This document shows positions 12,310 to 27,274 of a stretch of 64,000 nt of DNA, in pieces. Location: the NCBI RefSeq assembly GCF_036226925.1, contig NZ_CP109031.1, forward strand, positions 7,130,001-7,194,000, in the 5' to 3' direction. Within the stretch, counting starts at the first letter, position 1. Every line of letters starts with the position of its first letter. Made by a program: the position numbers and the translations under genes. The notes below the pieces were generated by a model. It did no database searches, was not told the origin of the DNA, and worked only from the letters and a program-made list of their open reading frames with translations. The DNA is from Streptomyces sp. NBC_00659 (GTDB taxonomy: Bacteria > Actinomycetota > Actinomycetes > Streptomycetales > Streptomycetaceae).

Positions 12310-12454
12310 CCGTCGAGCGGGCTGTCGTCCTACGGGCGGACCGTCCGGGCGGGGCGGGAGCGCGCCGCCCAGGGTGCCCCGGACGCCGCGCCGGGAAGCG
12401 GGTGCCGGGCGTCCGCCGGGCGGGCGAGACCGTGCGGACACGCCCCGGTTCCCG

Positions 12455-13873
12455 TCACGGGCCCGCCCGGCGCACCTTCGCCACCGCCTTGCGGGCCGCC
12501 ACCAGGACGGGGTCCCAGACAGGCGAGAACGGCGGCGCGTAGCCGAGGTCCAGCATCGTCATCTGTTCCACCGTCATGCCCGCGGTCAGCGCCACCGCCG
12601 CGATGTCCACCCGCTTCGCCGCGCCCTCCCGGCCGACGATCTGCACGCCGAGCAGCCGTCCCGTGCGGTGCTCCGCGAGCATCTTCACCGTCATGAGGGC
12701 GGCGTTCGGGTAGTAGCCCGCGCGGCTCGTCGACTCGATGGTGACGGTCTCGAACCGCAGGCCCGCCCGGTGCGCGTCCTTCTCCCGCAGTCCGGTGCGG
12801 GCGATCTCCAGATCACAGACCTTGCTCACCGCGGTGCCGACGACACCGGGGAACGTGGCGTATCCGCCGGCCACGTTGGAGCCGATGACCTGCCCGTGCT
12901 TGTTCGCGTGGGTACCCAGCGCGATGTGCCGCTCGCGTCCCGAGACCAGGTCGAGCACCTCGACGCAGTCGCCGCCCGCCCAGATGTTCTCGTGCCCGCG
13001 CACGCGCATCGCCAGGTCGGTCAGCAGCCCGCCGTGGTCGCCGAGCGGCAGCCCCGCCGCGCGGGCGAGCGTCGTCTCGGGGCGCACGCCGATACCGAGC
13101 ACCACCACGTCCGCCGGGTACGTGGCGTCCTCGGTGACGACCGCGCTGACCCGCCCTTCGGCGCCGGTGAGGAACGCGGTGACCTCGGCGTCGTCGACCA
13201 TGGTGATCCCGAGGCCCTCCATGGCGGTGTGCACCAGGCGGCCCATGTCCGGGTCGAGCGTGGACATGGGCTCCTTGCCGCGGTTGACCACCGTCACCTC
13301 GTACCCGCGGTTGATGAGCGCCTCGGCCATCTCCACGCCGATGTAGCCCGCGCCGACGACCACGGCCCGGCGGCCCTCGGCAGCCGTCAGCGAGTCGAGC
13401 AGGGCCTGCCCGTCGTCCAGGGTCTGCACGCCGTGCACGCCCGGCGCGTCGGCGCCCGGCAGGTCGGGGCGGACCGGACGCGCGCCGGTCGCGATCACGA
13501 GTCGGTCGTACGACGTCCACTGCTCGTCCCCGCTGCCGAGGTCCCGGGAGCGCACCCGGGCCCCCGCGACGTCGATCTCGGTGACCTCCGTACGCATCCT
13601 CAGGTCGATGGAGCGCTCCCGGTGTTCCTCGGGGGTCCGCGCGATCAGCCGGTCGCGGTCCGGGACGTCGCCGCCCACCCAGTACGGGATGCCGCACGCC
13701 GAGTACGACGTGAAGTGGCCCCGCTCGAACGCCACGATCTCCAGCTCGTCCGGACCGCGCAGCCGGCGGGCCTGTGACGCGGCGGACATTCCCGCCGCGT
13801 CACCCCCGATCACGACCAGTCGTTCCCGGGCGCCACGCCCGCCGTCGGCACCGTTCGTATCGCTCATGCTCAT
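12455..13873 (-). CDS. FAD-dependent pyridine nucleotide-disulfide oxidoreductase (CoA-disulfide reductase/NADH oxidase type)
   Basis: The protein is 472 aa. An FAD-binding Rossmann motif 'VVIGGDAAGMSAASQ' lies near residue 20, an NAD-binding repeat 'AVVVGAGYIGVEMAE' at about 165, and the single active-site Cys of CoA-disulfide reductases in 'YSACGIPYWVGG'. The C-terminal dimerisation domain carries 'QIVGREGAAKRVD'. It probably reduces a small disulfide or oxygen with NAD(P)H in the cytosol; the substrate is uncertain. The alternative start Met3 differs by two codons. Confidence 0.88.
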   Translation of the reverse strand: MSMSDTNGADGGRGARERLVVIGGDAAGMSAASQARRLRGPDELEIVAFERGHFTSYSACGIPYWVGGDVPDRDRLIARTPEEHRERSIDLRMRTEVTEIDVAGARVRSRDLGSGDEQWTSYDRLVIATGARPVRPDLPGADAPGVHGVQTLDDGQALLDSLTAAEGRRAVVVGAGYIGVEMAEALINRGYEVTVVNRGKEPMSTLDPDMGRLVHTAMEGLGITMVDDAEVTAFLTGAEGRVSAVVTEDATYPADVVVLGIGVRPETTLARAAGLPLGDHGGLLTDLAMRVRGHENIWAGGDCVEVLDLVSGRERHIALGTHANKHGQVIGSNVAGGYATFPGVVGTAVSKVCDLEIARTGLREKDAHRAGLRFETVTIESTSRAGYYPNAALMTVKMLAEHRTGRLLGVQIVGREGAAKRVDIAAVALTAGMTVEQMTMLDLGYAPPFSPVWDPVLVAARKAVAKVRRAGP

Positions 13874-16687: not shown

Positions 16688-17419
16688 ATGAGTGACGACG
16701 CCCCCACCACCGAGGCCGCCAGGATCCCGAACAAGGGCAAGCTGGCCAAGGACCTGAACGAGGTCATCCGCTACACCCTGTGGTCGGTCTTCAAGCTGAA
16801 GGACGTGCTCCCCGAGGACCGGGCCGGTTACGCCGACGAGGTCCAGGAGCTGTTCGACCAGCTCGCCGCCAAGGACGTCACCGTCCGCGGCACCTACGAC
16901 GTCTCGGGACTGCGCGCCGACGCCGACGTCATGATCTGGTGGCACGCCGAGACCAGTGACCAGCTCCAGGAGGCGTACAACCTCTTCCGCCGTACGAAGC
17001 TGGGCCGTGCCCTGGAGCCCGTCTGGTCGAACATGGCGCTGCACCGGCCCGCCGAGTTCAACCGCTCGCACATCCCGGCGTTCCTCGCCGACGAGACGCC
17101 CCGCGACTACATCAGCGTCTACCCCTTCGTGCGCTCCTACGACTGGTACCTGCTGCCCGACGAGGACCGCCGCCGGATGCTCGCCGACCACGGCAAGATG
17201 GCCCGCGGGTACCCCGACGTCCGCGCGAACACGGTCGCCTCGTTCTCGCTCGGCGACTACGAGTGGCTCCTCGCCTTCGAGGCCGACGAGCTCTACCGCA
17301 TCGTCGACCTCATGCGCCACCTGCGCGCCTCCGAGGCCCGGATGCACGTCCGTGAAGAGGTCCCGTTCTACACCGGCCGCCGCAAGGACGTCGCCGAACT
17401 GGTCGCGGGCCTCGCCTGA
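16688..17419 (+). CDS. hemQ: coproheme decarboxylase HemQ (ChdC)
   Basis: The protein is 243 aa, a chlorite-dismutase-fold protein. It decarboxylates two propionates of coproheme to give haem b, the last step of the coproporphyrin-dependent route. The catalytic Tyr lies in '[13 protein letters not shown]' and the proximal haem His in '[10 protein letters not shown]', both conserved in actinobacterial enzymes. It is coupled to the preceding hemY gene (4-bp gap) and ends in a double hairpin. The matching coproporphyrin ferrochelatase gene is not in this window. Confidence 0.94.
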
Positions 17420-17506: not shown

Positions 17507-19096
17507 TCAGTGTGCCCGGGCCACCGGTTCCCGGTGCGGTGCGCACCCCGCGTTCCGCCCGGGGAGCCGGCCCTCCAGCAGATAGGCGTCCAGATAGCCG
17601 TTGACGCAGGTGTTGGGGCCGCCCGCGATCCCATGGGTGCCGGCACCGTTCTCGGTCACCAGCACCGAGCCCCACAGCCGTCGCTGCAACTCCTTGGCAC
17701 CCTCGTACGGCGTCGCCGCGTCCCGCTCGGCGGCGAGGATCAGCGTCGGCGGCAGCTCCCCGGGCAGCGTCCGTACGTCGAGCGGCTTCTGCCGGGGCGC
17801 GGACCAGTACGCGCACGGCAGGTTCATCCACACGTTGTCCCAGGTCTCGAACGGGGCGACCCGCGCGAGACGGGTGTTGTCGCGGTCCCAGGTGCGCCAG
17901 TCGGTCGGCCAGGGCGCGTCGTTGCACTCCACGGCCGTGTAGACCGCGTTGCCGTTCTCCTGCTCGGCGGCGGCCTCCGGATGCGGTCCCGCCAGCTGGA
18001 TCAGCGGCTTCGGGTCGCCCTTCAGATAGGCGGACAGCGCCAGCGCGCGCTGCGGCCAGTAGTCGTCGAAGTACCCGGCCTGGAGGAACGCGCCCTGAAG
18101 CTGGGCGGGCCCCACCGTGCCGCCCGCGGGGGAGGCGGCGAGCCGGGCCCGCGCCTTCTCGTAGGAGCGCCGTACCTCCTCGGACGTGCGGCCCAGCTTG
18201 TACACCGTGTCGTGCCGGGCCATCCACGCGCGGAAGTCGGCCCAGCGGGTCTCGAACGCGGCCGACTGGTCGAGGTTGTTGCCGTACCAGACCTTCTCGG
18301 GGGCGGGGTTCACCGCCGAGTCGAAGACCATACGGCGTACGTGCGAGGGGAACAGCGTCGCGTACAGGGCACCGAAGTAGGTCCCGTACGAGGCACCCAT
18401 GAACGTCAGCTTCCGCTCGCCGAGCGCGGCCCGCAGCACGTCCAGGTCACGGGCGTTGTTGAGCGAGGTGTAGTGGCGCAGGGCGGAGCCCGAACGCCGG
18501 GCGCAGCCGCGGGCGTACGCCTTCGCCTCCGCGATCCGTGCCTTCTTGAACGACTCCGAGGGGACCGCCGGGGCCTGGAGGAGCGGCTTCGGCGGGTGCT
18601 TGGGGTCCCGGCAGGACAGCGGCGCCGACCGGTCGACACCGCGCGGGGCGTAGCCGACGAGGTCGTAGGCGCCTCCGATCCGCTTCCACGCGGGCAGCAT
18701 GCCGATCAGCGGGAAGTACACGCCGGAGGCGCCGGGACCGCCGGGGTTGTACACGAGAGCGCCCTGGCGCGGCACCTTGTGCCTCGCGTTGTGCGGATCC
18801 TTGCCGGTGGCCTTCACCCGGCTGACGGTCAGTCTGATCCGTTTGCCGTCGGGGAGCGCGTAGTCGAGGGGCACCGTGACCGTGCCGCACTGGAGGCCGG
18901 ACGGCAGGTGTTCCTCCTTGGGGCACTTGCCGAAGCGGATGCCCGCGGCGGCGGCGCGCTGGGCGGCGACGGCGGTGCCGCGCGTCTCGGCGGAAACGAG
19001 CGGGTCCGGCCAGGCCGGCGCGCCGTCCGCCGGAGCGGCGACGAGGCCGGTCAGCAGCAGGGACCCCGCGGTTCCGTGGAGGACGGCAGTTCTCAT
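17507..19096 (-). CDS. secreted tripeptidyl-aminopeptidase-like alpha/beta hydrolase (S33/TAP)
   Basis: The protein is 529 aa from ATG 19096 with GAAGGGA upstream. A signal peptide is visible: Arg, then a hydrophobic run, ending near 'APADGA'. The nucleophile Ser is in 'FMGASYGTYFGA', the acid Asp in 'AAERDAATPYEG' and the His in 'GAGTHGIAGG'. The 'VYNPGGPGASG' oxyanion region and the C-terminal TAP-like domain match Streptomyces tripeptidyl aminopeptidases and SlpD/SlpE. It probably removes N-terminal tri- or dipeptides outside the cell. Confidence 0.9.
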   Translation of the reverse strand: MRTAVLHGTAGSLLLTGLVAAPADGAPAWPDPLVSAETRGTAVAAQRAAAAGIRFGKCPKEEHLPSGLQCGTVTVPLDYALPDGKRIRLTVSRVKATGKDPHNARHKVPRQGALVYNPGGPGASGVYFPLIGMLPAWKRIGGAYDLVGYAPRGVDRSAPLSCRDPKHPPKPLLQAPAVPSESFKKARIAEAKAYARGCARRSGSALRHYTSLNNARDLDVLRAALGERKLTFMGASYGTYFGALYATLFPSHVRRMVFDSAVNPAPEKVWYGNNLDQSAAFETRWADFRAWMARHDTVYKLGRTSEEVRRSYEKARARLAASPAGGTVGPAQLQGAFLQAGYFDDYWPQRALALSAYLKGDPKPLIQLAGPHPEAAAEQENGNAVYTAVECNDAPWPTDWRTWDRDNTRLARVAPFETWDNVWMNLPCAYWSAPRQKPLDVRTLPGELPPTLILAAERDAATPYEGAKELQRRLWGSVLVTENGAGTHGIAGGPNTCVNGYLDAYLLEGRLPGRNAGCAPHREPVARAH

Positions 19097-19225
19097 CGCG
19101 AAATCCCTTCGGCGCACGGCAGCGACAGAAGGGATGCTTCGGCCGGCGGCCGGCGAAGTAAAGCACCGCCCGCCGGTGTCGGCGCCAATGACCCCGATGC
19201 GCCCCCCCGGGAGCGCCCCCTCCCG

Positions 19226-19999
19226 TCAGGAGGTCTCGCGGTCGCGGTGTGTCAGGGCCGCGCGCAGTTCCGGCTCGCCGATCGCGCGGATGCCGCGTAC
19301 GGCGACGGAAGTGAGGTACGTACGGTCGTCGCCGGACGCGTCGGCGTGCCTGGCCAGGGTGCCGAGCAGCCGCTGTCCGGCCGGGGAGGCCCAGCGGGTG
19401 CAGGGGTGCACCTCGATCCGGGCTATGGCGAGACAGCTCAGCGTCAGGATGAGCGGAAGCAGGAACCAGACGGCCACCGGCACGTCGCTGCCCGGAGCCT
19501 GGCCCGGCAGCAGCAGGGCCACCACGCCCAGCGCGAGGACCGCGGCCGCGGCGGCCCGGACCTGGCGGACGGCACTCGCGACGGAGGTGCGGGCCCCGTC
19601 GGGGACGGCGAGGCCGGCCGCGACCAGGCGGTCCGCGAGACGGCGTACCGAGTCGGCGGCGGCGGTGGCCGCCCGCACGGGTGCTATCCGGGACTGGCCC
19701 TCGGGTCCGATGGCCCTGATGACCGAGCGCTCCATGTCGTCGCGCCCGCGCGGGTCGACGACCGTGGCCCAGCCGGTGTGCGCGAGCAGCAGGCGACGCT
19801 GGCGGGCCATCGACACCAGGGTCAGGTCGGCCACCCGGGCCGGTCCGCCGGACAGGAACGCGGCCTCGTACAGCGTGAGGTCGTGCCCGCGCGCGGCGTC
19901 GGCGTCGAGGGACGCGGTGTGGACCGCGGCCAGACACAGCCGGGTGCAGGAGACGCCGGCCGCCAGCCAGGCGAGGAACAGGAGAAGGACCCAGAACAT
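19226..19999 (-). CDS. TIGR04222-type membrane protein
   Basis: The protein is 257 aa. An N-terminal membrane helix, 'MFWVLLLFLAWLAAGV', precedes the characteristic block 'LTLYEAAFLSGGPARVADLT', which I recognise as the TIGR04222 domain. Two more hydrophobic segments lie at about 145-160 and 172-190. Members elsewhere often end in Gly/Cys/Ser-rich low-complexity tails (recalled); this one has only a short charged tail. It is the last of three leftward genes with a DUF4142 gene and a DUF692 enzyme, a neighbourhood that suggests a shared process. Function unknown. Confidence 0.75.
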   Translation of the reverse strand: MFWVLLLFLAWLAAGVSCTRLCLAAVHTASLDADAARGHDLTLYEAAFLSGGPARVADLTLVSMARQRRLLLAHTGWATVVDPRGRDDMERSVIRAIGPEGQSRIAPVRAATAAADSVRRLADRLVAAGLAVPDGARTSVASAVRQVRAAAAAVLALGVVALLLPGQAPGSDVPVAVWFLLPLILTLSCLAIARIEVHPCTRWASPAGQRLLGTLARHADASGDDRTYLTSVAVRGIRAIGEPELRAALTHRDRETS

Positions 20000-20185
20000 G
20001 GCGTGTTTCTATGCGATGTGGCCGGTGGCGTCATGTTCCACTCACGATGTGGGACGCAGCCGTTCCCGGTATGTGACGTTCCGTTTGCCGCGGACCTCGG
20101 CGAATCGGCGCCCCACGTGCCCAACTCGTATGAGTCGGGCCGCTCTTGAGGAACAGACCCCTCGCGGACGGCCCGACCTGGTCGT

Positions 20186-20953
20186 TCAGGAGGTCGGGGA
20201 GGGATGGGGGCGCGTGGCGGCCGGAGGGAGCGGGTAGCCCGAGGACGGGGTCACCGGGAGGGGTGACGACGGGGACGGGACCGGGCCGGGCGGTGCGGGG
20301 GAGCGGGTGAGCGGCGGCGGGCTCGCGGTGGCCGCGTCCTCGGCGAGCGCGTCGAAGTCCACGTATCCGGTCGCTTCCAGGACCTTGATGTGGTCGAGCA
20401 CGGTGGTGTTCGCGTCGTCGGCGAGATCCCGTACGAGCGAGTTCCGGGTGTTCGCGCGGACCTGCGCGACCATGGCGAACACCTTGCCGTGCGCCGCGCG
20501 CAGGATGTTCGCGAAATCCTGGTCGTACCGCGTGCCGTGCGCCGCGCTGAGCGTGGACAGCCACTGACGCTGCTGCGGACTGGGCTGGCTGGGCAGTTCC
20601 AGGCTGAGCCGCGCGGCGACGCTGCGGACACGGGCGTCGAGGAACGTGTGCCCCTCGATGAGGTGCTGTCCGGCCGTCCGTACGGCCTGGGTGGTGCCGC
20701 GCTCCTGGGCCTGCTGGCCGGCGGGCAGCTCCCACAGACCGGCCAGCCGGACCCTGGTGACGAAGTCCCGGTCCAGGGCGGACAGCGGACCGTAGGGGGT
20801 CGGCACGGTCTGGGAGTTCAGGGTGTCCAGGCCGGTCCCGGCACGGTCCGCGTACGACCAGATCGGAAAGGCCAGCGCGACGAAGGTCGCCAGCAGCGCG
20901 GCGACGATGAGCCCTGTTCCGCTGACGAGTCCGGTGCGGTTGTCGGATCGCAT
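20186..20953 (-). CDS. DUF4142 family exported protein
   Basis: The protein is 255 aa from ATG 20953 behind AGGAGG. A hydrophobic segment at residues 10-32 acts as signal anchor. The helical DUF4142 domain (about 55-205) has ferritin-like helices with His in 'HLIEGHTFLD' and 'LDHIKVLEATG'. A Pro/Ser-rich tail follows. Function unknown. It lies between the TIGR04222 gene (186 bp away) and the DUF692 gene (315 bp) on the same strand. Confidence 0.82.
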   Translation of the reverse strand: MRSDNRTGLVSGTGLIVAALLATFVALAFPIWSYADRAGTGLDTLNSQTVPTPYGPLSALDRDFVTRVRLAGLWELPAGQQAQERGTTQAVRTAGQHLIEGHTFLDARVRSVAARLSLELPSQPSPQQRQWLSTLSAAHGTRYDQDFANILRAAHGKVFAMVAQVRANTRNSLVRDLADDANTTVLDHIKVLEATGYVDFDALAEDAATASPPPLTRSPAPPGPVPSPSSPLPVTPSSGYPLPPAATRPHPSPTS

Positions 20954-21268
20954 GGTGCCTCCTGTTGCGGCACCGCACGCTAATGCGCTTCGGGTGCGGG
21001 TTGGCATGCTACTGGGGGCTCTACGCCAACTGCCGTACACGAAGAACGGATCGGACTGAGGGGGGAAGGCGCCGATTGCGGTGGTTCGCGCGTACTCCAG
21101 AACAGCTTGAAGCGGTTGAAACGGGGCGCACACATGACCTTCACAAGCGGAGGTGTTACTCCGGGCACACTCCGCGGGTGAGGTGTGTCGGGTGCCCGGG
21201 CCAGGCGGCGCGCCGTGGCCGGTGGCGCGCGGCTGTGTGCCGGGCGGGTTCCCGCCCGGCACGCCCGC
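20954..21268. other. 315-bp intergenic region
   Basis: This lies between the DUF692 gene's end and the DUF4142 start. A 62-codon minus-strand frame with three cysteines crosses it but has mixed third-position use unlike its neighbours, so I do not call it a gene. The promoter of the DUF4142 gene must lie here. I see no strong hairpin. Confidence 0.5.
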
Positions 21269-22825
21269 TCAACGCCGGAGCAGCACCCGGCGGGTGGCCC
21301 GGGCCAGCCGGGCCGCGGGCCGCCCGGACAGCGGGGCCGGACCCGATCGTTCCAGCCACCAGTCGCGCAGCCGCCGCGTGTCCGCGCCTTCCGGGAGTCC
21401 CGTGAGCAGCAGGTGCTCGGCGAAGTCCAGGGCGTCCCGGCGGTAGCCGCCGGTCATCGGACGCCGCTGCGCGTACGCGAGGAACGCCGACCGGTAGGCG
21501 TCGGCCAGGATCGCCGGCAGCTCCGGGGCCACCTTCGCCACGACGTCCGCCCGCTTGGCGGCGAGGGCGCGCGCCTGTACCCCGAGGCGGACGCGGTCGA
21601 AGCCCTCGGGGGCGGGGGTCCCGGCGACGAGCGAGGACAGCAGGGCGGCCTGCGCCAGCGCCACCCGCTGACGACGGGCGTCGTCGGTGCCGGCGCGTGA
21701 ACCCGGTGCGGCCTGCTCGTCCGGTCCGCCCGCACCGCCCTGCTCGTCCGGTGCGGCCTCGGTGTCACCCGGTGTCCGGGACGCGGGCGTGGTGATCGCG
21801 GGAGGGGGCGACGAGGTGCCCGGGCTCCGCGTCGGCTCCGTTTCCGCCCCCGCCTCCCCGGCGGCCGCCGGAGAGGCGGCCCGGCAGCCCGCCAAGGCCA
21901 CCGCACCCCGCTCCGCCGCCCGGGCCGCGGCCTTCGTCGTCTCTCGCATCTCCCGCGTCTCCCGCGCCCCTGGGGTCCCCCGGGTCGCGGCTTTTGCCGT
22001 CTCCAGCGTTCCCCGGATCGCGGTCAGCTCCCGCTCCAGTCCGGCCGGGTCGGGGAAGTTCTCGTCGCGTTCGAGGAGGACCCCCGGCGGGGTCACCCGG
22101 GACGCGAGGTCGGCGAGGATGTCGAGCACGGGCCGCGTGACGGGATGGGCGTGGCTGTCGTGCCATACGCCGTCACGCTCGAAGCCCCCGGCGACGTGGA
22201 CGTAGGCGATCGCCTCGACGGGCAGTTCGTCGAGCGCCTCGGCGGGGTCCTCGCCACGGTTGACGTGGTTGGTGTGGAGGTTGGCCACGTCGATGAGCAG
22301 CCGGACGCCGGTGCGGTCGACCAGGTCGTAGAGGAACTGGCCCTCGGTCATCTCCTCGCCGGGCCAGGAGATCAGCGCGGCGATGTTCTCCACGGCGAGC
22401 GGGACGGGCAGCGCGGCCTGAGCGGCGCGGACGTTCTCGCACAGGACGTGCAGCGCGTCCCGGGTGCGGGGAACGGGCAGCAGGTGCCCGGCCTCCAGCA
22501 GTGGCGACGCGGTGAGCGGGCCGCCCGCCCGGACGAACGCGATGTGTTCCGTGACGAGGGGCGAGCCCAGTGCCTCGGCGCGTTCCGCGAGCGCGGTGAG
22601 CCGCGCCTCGTCGGGCCGGTCGGCGCCGCCGAGGCCCAGGGAGACGCCGTGCGGCACCACCGTGATCCCCCGCTCGCGCAGCCGCAGCAGCGACTCGGGG
22701 AGATGACCGGGGCACACGTTCTCCGCCACGGCCTCGACCCAGTCGATGCCGGCCATGTTCTCCACGGCCTCGGCGATCTCCGGCCTCCACCCGATGCCCG
22801 TACCCAGCCGCCCCGGCTCCCTCAT
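21269..22825 (-). CDS. DUF692 multinuclear non-haem iron (MNIO) family enzyme with fused C-terminal domain
   Basis: The protein is 518 aa from ATG 22825 with GGAGGAGGG upstream. Residues 1-285 form a DUF692 TIM barrel with the metal-site residues in place: His in '[11 protein letters not shown]', 'TEHIAF', 'AVENIAAL', '[14 protein letters not shown]', 'YVHVAGGF', 'DSHAHPV' and 'LLERDENF'. Characterised relatives (MbnB, TglH) use two or three iron ions to oxidise Cys or other residues of peptides. A low-complexity Ala/Thr/Pro linker (about 290-385) leads to a helical C-terminal domain of about 130 aa, possibly the DUF2063-like partner fused in. No precursor peptide is recognisable nearby. Confidence 0.87.
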
Positions 22826-23220: not shown

Positions 23221-24039
23221 ATGCAGCCTGGCGAGCAGCTGACCACGTCGATCGATGCCACGGTGCCCACGGCCGCGCGCATGTACGACCACTACCTCGG
23301 CGGCAAGGACAACTACGCCGCCGACCGGGCGGCCTGCGAAGAGCTGGACAAGGTCGTGCCCAGCACGCGCGCGCTCGCTCTGAACAACCGGCGCTTCCTC
23401 CAGCGGGTGGTCCGGACGCTGGCGGACGGCTACGGGATCAGGCAGTTCCTCGATCACGGATCCGGCCTGCCCACCCAGAACAACGTGCACCAGGTCGCCC
23501 AGACGGTCGACGAGACCTCCCGGGTGGTCTACGTCGACAGCGATCCGATGGTGCTGGTGCACGGCCGGGCCCTGCTGGACCAGAACGAGCGGACCGCCGT
23601 CATACACGCCGACCTGCGGCAGACGGAGGAGATCTTCTCCCACCCCGACACCCGGCGGCTGATCGATCTCTCGCAGCCGGTGGCCGTGCTGTTCAACTCG
23701 GTGTTCCACTGCATCCCGGACAGCGAGACCGACGGGCCGCTCCCCGTGATCCGCCGCGTCGCCGAACGGCTGGCGCCCGGCAGCTTCATGGTGATGTGCC
23801 AACTGGTCAGCGAGGACGCCGAGGTCCGCGACTTCGTCACCGGGTTCATGGACACCGCGACGCAGGGGCACTGGGGCCGGGTCCGCCAGGAGAAGGACGT
23901 GGAGCAGTTCTTCGACGGCATGGACATCCTCGAACCCGGACTGGTCGAGGTATCGACCTGGCGCCCGGACACCGACGTCGTGCCGCGCCAGCTCACGCAG
24001 GAGTGGATCGAGTTCGGCGGGGTCGGCCGGATCCGCTAG
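23221..24039 (+). CDS. DUF574 SAM-dependent methyltransferase-like protein
   Basis: The protein is 272 aa from ATG 23221 behind GGGGGAACG. It has the DUF574 signature: 'ARMYDHYLGGKDNYAADR' near residue 20, a SAM-binding strand 'RQFLDHGSGLPTQNNVHQ', the acidic loop 'VVYVDSDPMVLVHG' and 'LFNSVFHCIPD'. The family is greatly expanded in streptomycetes, often beside HTH/DUF397 regulator genes as here. Substrate unknown. Confidence 0.9.
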   Translation: MQPGEQLTTSIDATVPTAARMYDHYLGGKDNYAADRAACEELDKVVPSTRALALNNRRFLQRVVRTLADGYGIRQFLDHGSGLPTQNNVHQVAQTVDETSRVVYVDSDPMVLVHGRALLDQNERTAVIHADLRQTEEIFSHPDTRRLIDLSQPVAVLFNSVFHCIPDSETDGPLPVIRRVAERLAPGSFMVMCQLVSEDAEVRDFVTGFMDTATQGHWGRVRQEKDVEQFFDGMDILEPGLVEVSTWRPDTDVVPRQLTQEWIEFGGVGRIR

Positions 24040-24167
24040 TTCCGGTCCACTTCCGGCCTCCCGGCGCCTGCGGCGGGACCCGCTCGCGGGTGCGCGGCGG
24101 GATCTGCCCGACGGGAGCTGTCTGGCGGGGCCTGCCGGCAACGGTCCGGGCCCGGCGTGACGGCCCG

Positions 24168-25091
24168 TCAGTGCGAGGCGTTGTACCGCTGTTCCACCGT
24201 GCTGCGCAGCAATGCCAGGGACGCGCGCGGGCTGAGAGCCTCGTCGGCGAGCCGGTCCAGGACCACCCGGTACTCCTCCGTCTCGTCGCGGTCCTCCAGG
24301 AAGTTGGCGCTCCTGATGTGCTCCAGATAGACGATGTCGGGCAGTTCGACGCCACCGAAGCGCAGATAGGTGACGGGGATCGCCGGAGCCGAGGCGTTGG
24401 TGACGTCCAACGGCACGATCTGCACGACCACATGGGGGCGCTGGGCCATCTCGATGAGGTGCTCCAGCTGCGCGCGCATCACCTCACGGCTGCCCAGAAC
24501 GCGCAGCAGTACGGACTCGTCGACGACGGCCCACAGCTGAGGGGCGTCCACCCGGTTCAGCAGCTCCCGCCGGCGCATGCGCAACTCCACCCGGCGCTGC
24601 ACCTCGGCGGCGGGCGCCGTCGGGAGCCCGCGCTCCACCACGGCCCGTGTGTAGTCCGGGGTCTGCAACAGGCCCGGAACGTACTGGATCTCGAAGGTGC
24701 GGATGGTGGTGGCCGCCTCCTGGAGTCCGACCAGCCGGTCGAACCACTCGGGCATCAGCCGCTTGTCGTAGCGCTGCCACCACCCCGGCTCGCCCGCGCG
24801 CTTGAGCAGTCTGAGCAGGACCGACACCTGGTAGTCCTCGGTCCCGTACAGGTCGAGCAGCGCGCGGACGTCGCCCTCCGTCGGCGGCCGACGGCCCTTG
24901 CCCGCCTCTATGCGCGACAGCTTCGCCGCGCTGAACCCCAGGGAACGCGCGGCCTGTTCCTGGGACAGCCCCGCGTCCTCGCGGGCGCCGGCCAGCTGAA
25001 CGCCGACCAGCATCTTCAGCAGAGTGGGGGCGGGCTCCTCCCGGCTCAGATACGGTTCGAGGCGGGAGACGCGGCGTGACTCGACGGACAT
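24168..25091 (-). CDS. XRE-type helix-turn-helix regulator with DUF5753 domain (WhiJ-like)
   Basis: The protein is 307 aa. An N-terminal HTH 'LSQEQAARSLGFSAAKLSRI' at about residues 42-62 is followed by the DUF5753 ligand-like domain ('IQYVPGLLQTPDYTRAV', 'RQQ..L' pattern replaced by 'RRVELRMRRRELL', 'VQIVPLDVT'). In streptomycetes such genes pair with a small DUF397 gene. WhiJ, its best-known member, represses aerial development until relieved by its partner. The DUF397 gene lies 129 bp upstream on the same strand. Confidence 0.9.
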   Translation of the reverse strand: MSVESRRVSRLEPYLSREEPAPTLLKMLVGVQLAGAREDAGLSQEQAARSLGFSAAKLSRIEAGKGRRPPTEGDVRALLDLYGTEDYQVSVLLRLLKRAGEPGWWQRYDKRLMPEWFDRLVGLQEAATTIRTFEIQYVPGLLQTPDYTRAVVERGLPTAPAAEVQRRVELRMRRRELLNRVDAPQLWAVVDESVLLRVLGSREVMRAQLEHLIEMAQRPHVVVQIVPLDVTNASAPAIPVTYLRFGGVELPDIVYLEHIRSANFLEDRDETEEYRVVLDRLADEALSPRASLALLRSTVEQRYNASH

Positions 25092-26225: not shown

Positions 26226-26978
26226 TCAGACCGCCGCATCCGGAACGCTTTTCGGCAGGGTGCCGACGCGGTCGTGTCCCTCGACGGCGACCGTCAGTCC
26301 GGGAGCGATCTCCGTGAACCCCGCGTCACGGACCAACGGCAGCTCGGAAGCGCTGAGTTCACTCCAGCGGGCCGGGTCGGCCGTGCGCACCGAGAGGGCG
26401 AAGCCCGCCTCGCGCCAGGCGATCCGCTCCTTCTCCGACAGTTCCCACCAGGCCAGCTGGGCGCCATGGCCCGTCTGCGCCATCGTCTTGCCGGCCGACA
26501 TGTCGAGTTCCGGGTTCAGCCACAGCACGGGCGCCGCCGGATCGGCCGGTGCCGGGGGCTCCGGATCGTCGAGATCCGTGCCGGACACCTGGAGCCGTGC
26601 CAGGTCCTTGGGCCAGCCGTCCAGCGGTACCGGCGGGAAAACCCGTACCTCCGCGGACCGCCCGGTCACGGTGATGCCGGGCAGAGTCTCGGCCCGCCGC
26701 CACTCGGCTCCGCGCGCCCGCCGCACGACCTTGCGGATCCGGGCGTCCTGCCAGTCCCGCATCGCCTCCGCCCAGATACCGTCCCCGAGCGACCGCTCGT
26801 CGCTCAGGATGGTCAGCACGGCCCGGGCGGCGGTCTCCAGCGCGTCGGTGCGCGCCGGGGGAGCGGCCTTCTCGATGTGCACGACCAGCGGCAGCACGAA
26901 CTGCCGTGCCTCGTCGCGCACGGTGGGCTCGTCACGGAACGGGCTGTCGTCGGCGGGGGTGGGGTCGTCGCTGCTCAC
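26226..26978 (-). CDS. PTH2-like peptidyl-tRNA hydrolase family protein
   Basis: The protein is 250 aa from GTG 26978; longer upstream frame is Arg/Gly-rich and unsupported. The C-terminal third carries 'MSAGKTMAQTGHGAQLAWWE' and 'VRDAGFTEIAPGLTVAVEGH', which match the lysine-glycine-bearing start and closing strands of PTH2 domains. Residues 1-130 are a charged, helical region of unknown role. PTH2 enzymes release peptidyl-tRNA; whether this longer actinobacterial form does so is unproven. Confidence 0.72.
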   Translation of the reverse strand: MSSDDPTPADDSPFRDEPTVRDEARQFVLPLVVHIEKAAPPARTDALETAARAVLTILSDERSLGDGIWAEAMRDWQDARIRKVVRRARGAEWRRAETLPGITVTGRSAEVRVFPPVPLDGWPKDLARLQVSGTDLDDPEPPAPADPAAPVLWLNPELDMSAGKTMAQTGHGAQLAWWELSEKERIAWREAGFALSVRTADPARWSELSASELPLVRDAGFTEIAPGLTVAVEGHDRVGTLPKSVPDAAV

Positions 26979-27061: not shown

Positions 27062-27274
27062 TCAGCCCGAACACGCGGTGCGCTGTGCCTCCTGCCAGGC
27101 GCAGACGGGGCACAGCGTGATCCCCCTGTACGACTCCGGATACTCGGTCGGTTCACGGCACAGCACGCACTCCGCGTACGGCGGCCCGGCCTGTTCCGCC
27201 GCCGGGTCGAGGGCGTCGCGGGAGTCCATGCCCGGCCGCCCGTTTCCGCCGGTCGCGCAGTGGTCGTCGCTCAT
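27062..27274 (-). CDS. small CxxC zinc-ribbon-like protein
   Basis: The protein is 70 aa from ATG 27274 behind GGTGGAGG. Two Cys pairs, 'CVLCREP' and 'LCPVCAWQ', are 15 residues apart and probably bind one zinc ion. No other domain. Conserved small proteins like this occur in streptomycetes, but I know no function. It is 83 bp upstream of the PTH2-like gene on the same strand. Confidence 0.65.
   Translation of the reverse strand: MSDDHCATGGNGRPGMDSRDALDPAAEQAGPPYAECVLCREPTEYPESYRGITLCPVCAWQEAQRTACSG

Follow-up and report, generated by a model that had tools for sequence, protein, structure and literature searches.

A fused MNIO enzyme of Streptomyces under constraint in a clade that mostly lacks the Cys-tailed TIGR04222 gene

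The 64,000-nucleotide stretch of Streptomyces sp. NBC_00659 analysed here (the window; the genome is 9.66 Mb in one contig) encodes a 518-residue MNIO (DUF692) enzyme with a partner domain fused at its C terminus (21269..22825, minus strand). In many relatives, the MNIO gene adjoins a gene for a TIGR04222 protein that ends in a Gly/Ser tail bearing cysteines. What is new here is that the TIGR04222 protein of the window is tail-less and that the Cys-tailed gene is missing from nearly all loci of the window's clade while the MNIO is constrained. Taken together, the data make it fairly likely that the enzyme is a fused MNIO-partner oxidase derived from an ancestral unit with a Cys-tailed TIGR04222 protein, that the cognate gene has been lost and that the oxidase acts on a target encoded in trans.

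The locus was compared across a draw of 150 genomes, 141 of which contain an MNIO. Loci were taken from 118 of the 140 other MNIO genomes and make, with the window, a set of 119; the loci of two genomes without an MNIO match (G047 and G105) were also taken in. Among the matches listed for the locus, the 80 relatives with a name all belong to Streptomyces. Relatives hold two TIGR04222 paralogues, one Cys-tailed (3-11 tail Cys, 58 proteins) and one tail-less. By tblastn, the Cys-tailed gene is present in 60 of the 119 loci. Two assignments are ambiguous: L096 is tail-less by tblastn yet has 3 tail Cys by gene call, and L090, though closest to the Cys-tailed paralogue, has a single Cys in its tail. 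The distance from the MNIO stop to the Cys-tailed TIGR04222 start is at most 10 bp in 48 of the 49 fused loci scored, with a median of -4 bp. For the tail-less gene, where it directly follows the MNIO, such a short gap is seen in 2 of 17 cases. Gene starts for these counts come from our own GC-based gene caller. Outside the genus, all four genomes carrying the partner domain encode TIGR04222 with a Cys tail, MNIO and partner consecutively. An ancestral unit composed of a Cys-tailed TIGR04222 protein, an MNIO and a partner is supported by these sequence comparisons. In this ancestor, the MNIO barrel would bind two to three irons, and the partner domain would hold the substrate and tune the iron. 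Cysteines in the Gly/Ser tail of TIGR04222 would be oxidised, for instance to thiooxazoles, which would give this membrane protein a tail that binds metal. Oxidation of tail cysteines is most likely what the MNIO does in the relatives, and the Cys-tailed gene that adjoins it there probably encodes the substrate.

The TIGR04222 membrane protein of the window (257 residues; 19226..19999, minus strand) scores 150.1 bits against a cut-off of 43. It is the single TIGR04222 match in the genome at E ≤ 0.001, as the enzyme is the single MNIO match. Its only cysteines are at positions 18, 22, 189 and 200, with none after residue 200. It therefore lacks the Cys-bearing Gly/Ser tail of MNIO-modified TIGR04222 precursors, and its gene does not adjoin the MNIO. 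Spacing comparison places the site of the adjoining Cys-tailed gene of relatives in a spacer (20954..21268, minus strand) from which that gene is absent. No Cys-rich coding frame was seen between the three genes MNIO, DUF4142 and TIGR04222, either in the list of open reading frames of at least 20 residues or in the GC-based gene calls, in agreement with the initial annotation, which recognised no precursor peptide within this run.

In a quick maximum-likelihood tree of the 119 barrels, the window falls in a set of 55 loci with a Shimodaira-Hasegawa-like approximate likelihood ratio test (SH-aLRT) support of 98. Within this clade, 44 loci carry the tail-less TIGR04222 gene only, nine carry none, and two (L148 and L149) have the Cys-tailed gene, in the order MNIO, Cys-tailed, DUF4142, tail-less. 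In all, 53 of the 55 loci lack the Cys-tailed gene. Loci cut by a contig end (L113, L117, L119, L136, L161 and others) were counted as found, and three of the nine loci without TIGR04222 are of this kind (L119, L136 and L161). The tree requires at least eight changes of the TIGR04222-state label. On these sequence data, the simplest reading is that the Cys-tailed gene was lost early in the clade and kept or regained in L148 and L149, with a few losses elsewhere.

The TIM barrel of the window enzyme (residues 1-273; 22007..22825, minus strand) matches PF05114 over residues 9-273 with 253.7 bits (cut-off 25) and aligns with TglH (3.2e-23) and with MbnB. Of twelve His, Asp, Glu and Asn positions tested, 11 are invariant in all 119 loci and position 187 is kept in 103. 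These are residues of the kind that make up the multi-iron site of MNIO enzymes. The alignments and the invariant positions bear out the initial annotation, according to which the barrel retains its metal residues. The window MNIO does not reach the NCBIfam equivalog cut-offs of BufB (174.7 of 310 bits), HvfB (141.1 of 360), ApyH (112.5 of 400), ChrH (35.3 of 600) or MbnB (29 of 325). Seven barrel columns differ between clades, several of them next to metal-type residues; they are not used in the argument. Separately, a second MNIO was observed in G090, G099 and G031, with frames of 302-361 residues and PF05114 scores of 357.8-371.1 bits, far above the SCO6045 type.

Selection on the enzyme was followed with pairwise ratios of non-synonymous to synonymous substitution rates (dN/dS; Nei-Gojobori, dS 0.15-1.0), in which pairs are not independent. 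For the barrel, the 53 sequences of the clade (1375 pairs) give a dN/dS of 0.134, and the 49 sequences from fused loci that have the Cys-tailed gene (1171 pairs) give 0.202. As a control we used the chlorite dismutase family protein of the conserved flank, presumably HemQ (16688..17419, plus strand; PF06778, 261.8 bits), which gives 0.149 and 0.135, respectively. The partner domain gives 0.293 and 0.325. Eight clade members have neither the adjoining Cys-tailed gene nor the unlinked one described below; 27 of their 28 pairs show barrel values of 0.051-0.163, and the remaining pair shows 0.252. The window MNIO compared with its two nearest kin gives 0.135 and 0.137. The value for TIGR04222 in Cys-tail loci (0.836) was left out of the argument because it mixes two paralogues. 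General relaxation of selection on the clade MNIO was not seen in these pairwise values, and they support an MNIO that is still strongly constrained though the Cys-tailed gene is gone. Two loci weigh against this: L125 (0.19-0.29) and L145 (0.17-0.32) have raised ratios relative to their nearest kin, and both are in genomes with no TIGR04222 match. The metal-type residues are retained in these two loci too.

Because the metal-type residues are kept and the dN/dS of 0.13 is like that of HemQ, the clade MNIO is probably a working enzyme; since it is strongly conserved although its local target gene is gone, its substrate is probably encoded in trans. The MNIO of the window would thus still be active on a target whose gene lies elsewhere; the DUF4142 protein would not be that target, nor would the tail-less TIGR04222 protein. 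It is possible, though far from assured, that in nearly half of the sampled genus loci the fused MNIO has left a role like that in ribosomally synthesized and post-translationally modified peptide (RiPP) systems, and is now a stand-alone modifier of a housekeeping protein, with a genetically unlinked target. This target may perhaps belong to oxidative-stress or metal/haem physiology. SCO6045 of S. coelicolor, which we infer from the domain label to be the orthologue of the window enzyme, is reported to be up 3.01-fold under oxidative stress and is listed among genes whose response, present in the wild type, is absent from the HbpS-SenS-SenR mutant (accessible part of PMC4991794).

Substrates of MNIO enzymes are usually assigned via an adjacent precursor gene. 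In the 53 sampled clade loci, MNIO and partner are strongly conserved without an adjoining substrate gene, and mining of the gene neighbourhood would therefore miss the substrate of the clade MNIO.

The C-terminal domain (residues 384-518; 21272..21676, minus strand) carries the label PF26136, 'SCO6045-like C-terminal'. It is conserved and mainly helical, and is joined to the barrel by a low-complexity linker (residues 274-383; 21677..22006, minus strand) whose length varies from 29 to 175 residues among 81 orthologues. The architecture described in the initial annotation, an MNIO with a linker and a helical C-terminal domain (about 135 residues) beside DUF4142 and TIGR04222 genes, is confirmed. 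MNIO and partner are fused in 107 of the 119 loci. In ten others, the MNIO is unfused and the partner domain is a separate neighbouring gene; L101, with a frame break, and L113 were scored unfused but stand outside these ten clean cases. The best fold match of a model of the domain is TglI, the partner of the MNIO TglH. As in PME-type 2 or TglI-like partners, a helical fold related to TglI goes with a gene placed directly beside the MNIO. The relation to TglI came from the fold comparison only: a profile of 42 domain copies found no significant relative among PDB sequences (best E 0.086). The initial annotation had suggested comparison with DUF2063 and other MNIO partner families. At the profile level DUF2063 was rejected, as the Pfam DUF2063 profile gives no match to the domain at E ≤ 1; NGO1945 (3dee) is not among the matches listed in the fold comparison. 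The separate genes in the ten loci, the arrangement outside the genus and the TglI-like model agree with the proposal of the initial annotation, and the domain is very probably the usual separate MNIO partner in fused form. A literature search on fusions of PF26136/SCO6045-like domains with MNIO enzymes returned a sole match, the accessible part of which concerns a HEXXH enzyme.

Two Cys-rich proteins were weighed as specific candidates for a substrate in trans, a reading that we consider possible but rather doubtful for either. The first is an unlinked TIGR04222 relative found in part of the window's clade. Its last 45 residues are Gly-rich and, in 19 of 23 loci, include one Cys or more; by eye it has no long hydrophobic stretch and is apparently soluble. 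A 22-row profile gives 22 strong matches in the 150 genomes, and the 19 strong carriers whose MNIO locus was fetched all fall within the clade and have no local Cys-tailed gene. Weak partial matches of at most 87 bits were not counted; most came from genomes that have a Cys-tailed gene. Against this candidate, the relative was not found for 33 of the 53 clade loci (the second-type carrier G087 being counted as positive), in which the MNIO is equally constrained, nor was it matched in the window's genome; in this search, about 21 of the 100-250 initial candidates per genome were scored, so that absences are not proven. Instead, a decayed copy that stops prematurely and has lost a large inner segment lies at about 7.396 Mb, outside the window (L267, about 12450-12600, minus strand). 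Its place is syntenic, with flanks that align with those of relatives, and in the close relatives L228 and L231 the gene is intact with a Cys-bearing Gly tail. The dN/dS of the MNIO is 0.133 with the unlinked relative and 0.134 without it. Judged from sequence, this protein can be the MNIO substrate in some species, not the reason for MNIO retention in all. The tails of the unlinked TIGR04222-like family as a whole (L224-L226 and L227-L249) are Gly-rich, with 0-4 Cys among the final 45 residues.

The second candidate is a 70-residue protein with six Cys (27062..27274, minus strand; CVLC...CPVC...ACSG end). About 445 kb of the genome were scanned for small Cys-rich frames, and this one alone, of six passing the scan, was judged a real gene; the other five were judged chance frames. 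It has matches in 105 of the 150 genomes, with a single weak match (33% identical) among the nine genomes without an MNIO. However, 37 of the 141 MNIO genomes lack it, and it looks like a common CPxCG zinc finger, as one source name has it. It was rejected as a general MNIO substrate and is kept as a weak candidate. The 'invariance' of its Cys68 is partly built in because the filter demanded a Cys near the C terminus.

It appears unlikely that the MNIO modifies its tail-less TIGR04222 neighbour, at Cys18, Cys22 or Cys189. The gene of this neighbour is syntenic and its family has been proposed in print as MNIO substrates (PMC12452194, accessible part). Among 41 aligned tail-less copies of the clade, Cys18 is kept in 35, Cys22 in 38 and Cys189 in 40. 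Outside the clade, Cys22 is less well kept (22 of 32 copies), but Cys18 (25 of 32) and Cys189 (29 of 32) are retained there as well. Linkage to the MNIO is loose, as seen above from the gaps. The tail-less gene also persists in the MNIO-less genomes G047 and G105. Conversely, 13 of the 141 MNIO genomes keep the MNIO but gave no TIGR04222 match in a search that scored 17 candidates per genome; G013 and G110 among them consist of one contig, and fragmented drafts make up some of the rest. Neither neighbour is a good substrate, since this protein is tail-less and persists without the MNIO, and DUF4142 never lies within 10 bp of it. Of the two possibilities left by the initial annotation, a neighbouring substrate or one encoded elsewhere, the second is favoured.

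We regard it as very improbable that the MNIO of the window's lineage is a remnant about to disappear. In favour of this stand the absence of the adjoining substrate gene, the decay of the trans relative in this genome and the raised ratios of L125 and L145; it is opposed by the low dN/dS of the clade, of the members without either Cys-tailed gene and of the window, by the metal-type residues and by the induction of SCO6045, the family namesake. The DUF4142 protein is very unlikely to be a substrate or functional partner: its gene directly follows the MNIO in 33 of the 119 loci, window included, but with gaps of 97-423 bp (median 261 bp; none of the 33 at 10 bp or less) and without adjacency in the other loci, the window protein has no Cys, and the genome has four further DUF4142 matches, five in all.

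The association of MNIO and TIGR04222 was published in 2025 (PMC12452194), so the window's system is not new and belongs to a known kind. The accessible part of that paper presents TIGR04222 proteins with Ser/Gly/Cys tails, mostly from Actinomycetota, as likely MNIO substrates, gives the gene order 'Adjamnio-II - MNIO - TIGR04222' and 'PME-type 2' partners, and finds no C-proximal Cys in more than a quarter of TIGR04222 proteins. The window has in common with these loci the MNIO and TIGR04222 families, a PTH-like neighbour and its origin in Actinomycetota. It differs in that the partner is fused, the local TIGR04222 protein is tail-less and the Cys-tailed gene is missing; no description of the partner fusion or of the loss of the Cys-tailed gene was found in the accessible part of the paper.

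The window enzyme resembles TglHI in its barrel and in its C-terminal domain, but TglHI are two proteins acting on the C-terminal Cys of a carrier peptide, whereas the window enzyme is one chain. HvfB/HvfC, the bufferin systems and MbnBC also combine an MNIO and a partner, and there Cys are oxidised to metal-binding heterocycles. They mostly have a DUF2063-RRE type partner and an adjacent precursor gene, in contrast to the short PF26136 partner and the lack of a precursor in the window. MovX, cited as an example of an RRE domain fused to an MNIO (PMC13419390, accessible part), is likewise a natural fusion to a substrate-handling domain, which in the window is TglI-like and helical. According to the same source, HvfC is required for the mixed-valent diiron state, and the HvfB-HvfC pair binds so weakly that an artificial fusion, which is highly active, was made for studies of iron spectroscopy and structure. 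The natural one-chain fusion lends itself well to the same studies.

The DUF4142 protein (255 residues with an N-terminal hydrophobic stretch; 20186..20953, minus strand) scores 73.1 bits against PF13628 (cut-off 27). Its start at 20953 comes from the GC-based gene caller and is not that of the longest open reading frame. With this start, a spacer of 315 bp separates DUF4142 from the MNIO and one of 186 bp separates it from TIGR04222; the three genes thus do not form a tightly packed operon. Neither these spacers nor the count over 119 loci sustains the three-gene unit that had been proposed. In L012, L023, L087, L016 and others, the MNIO has another DUF4142 gene upstream, which shares about 57% identity with that of the window.

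Downstream of the run, a TAP-like alpha/beta hydrolase (17507..19117, minus strand; PF08386, 90.3 bits) belongs to the syntenic conserved flank. Beside the chlorite dismutase family protein, a flavin amine-oxidase-fold protein, which we take to be HemY, is encoded on the strand opposite to the MNIO run. On the other side lies a PTH2-like gene (250 residues, 1 Cys; 26226..26978, minus strand; PF01981, 26.6 bits versus a cut-off of 23). It has matches in 139 of the 150 genomes, including five of the nine without an MNIO, and resembles the 'adjamnio-II' neighbour of published MNIO-TIGR04222 loci (Table 2 of PMC12452194, accessible part). It is separated from the MNIO by genes for an S-adenosylmethionine (SAM) methyltransferase (PF04672) and a helix-turn-helix (HTH)-DUF5753 protein (23221-25091). 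This segment looks like an insertion, because the pair is found at 92-96% identity in only 4 of the 80 named loci (L008-L011).

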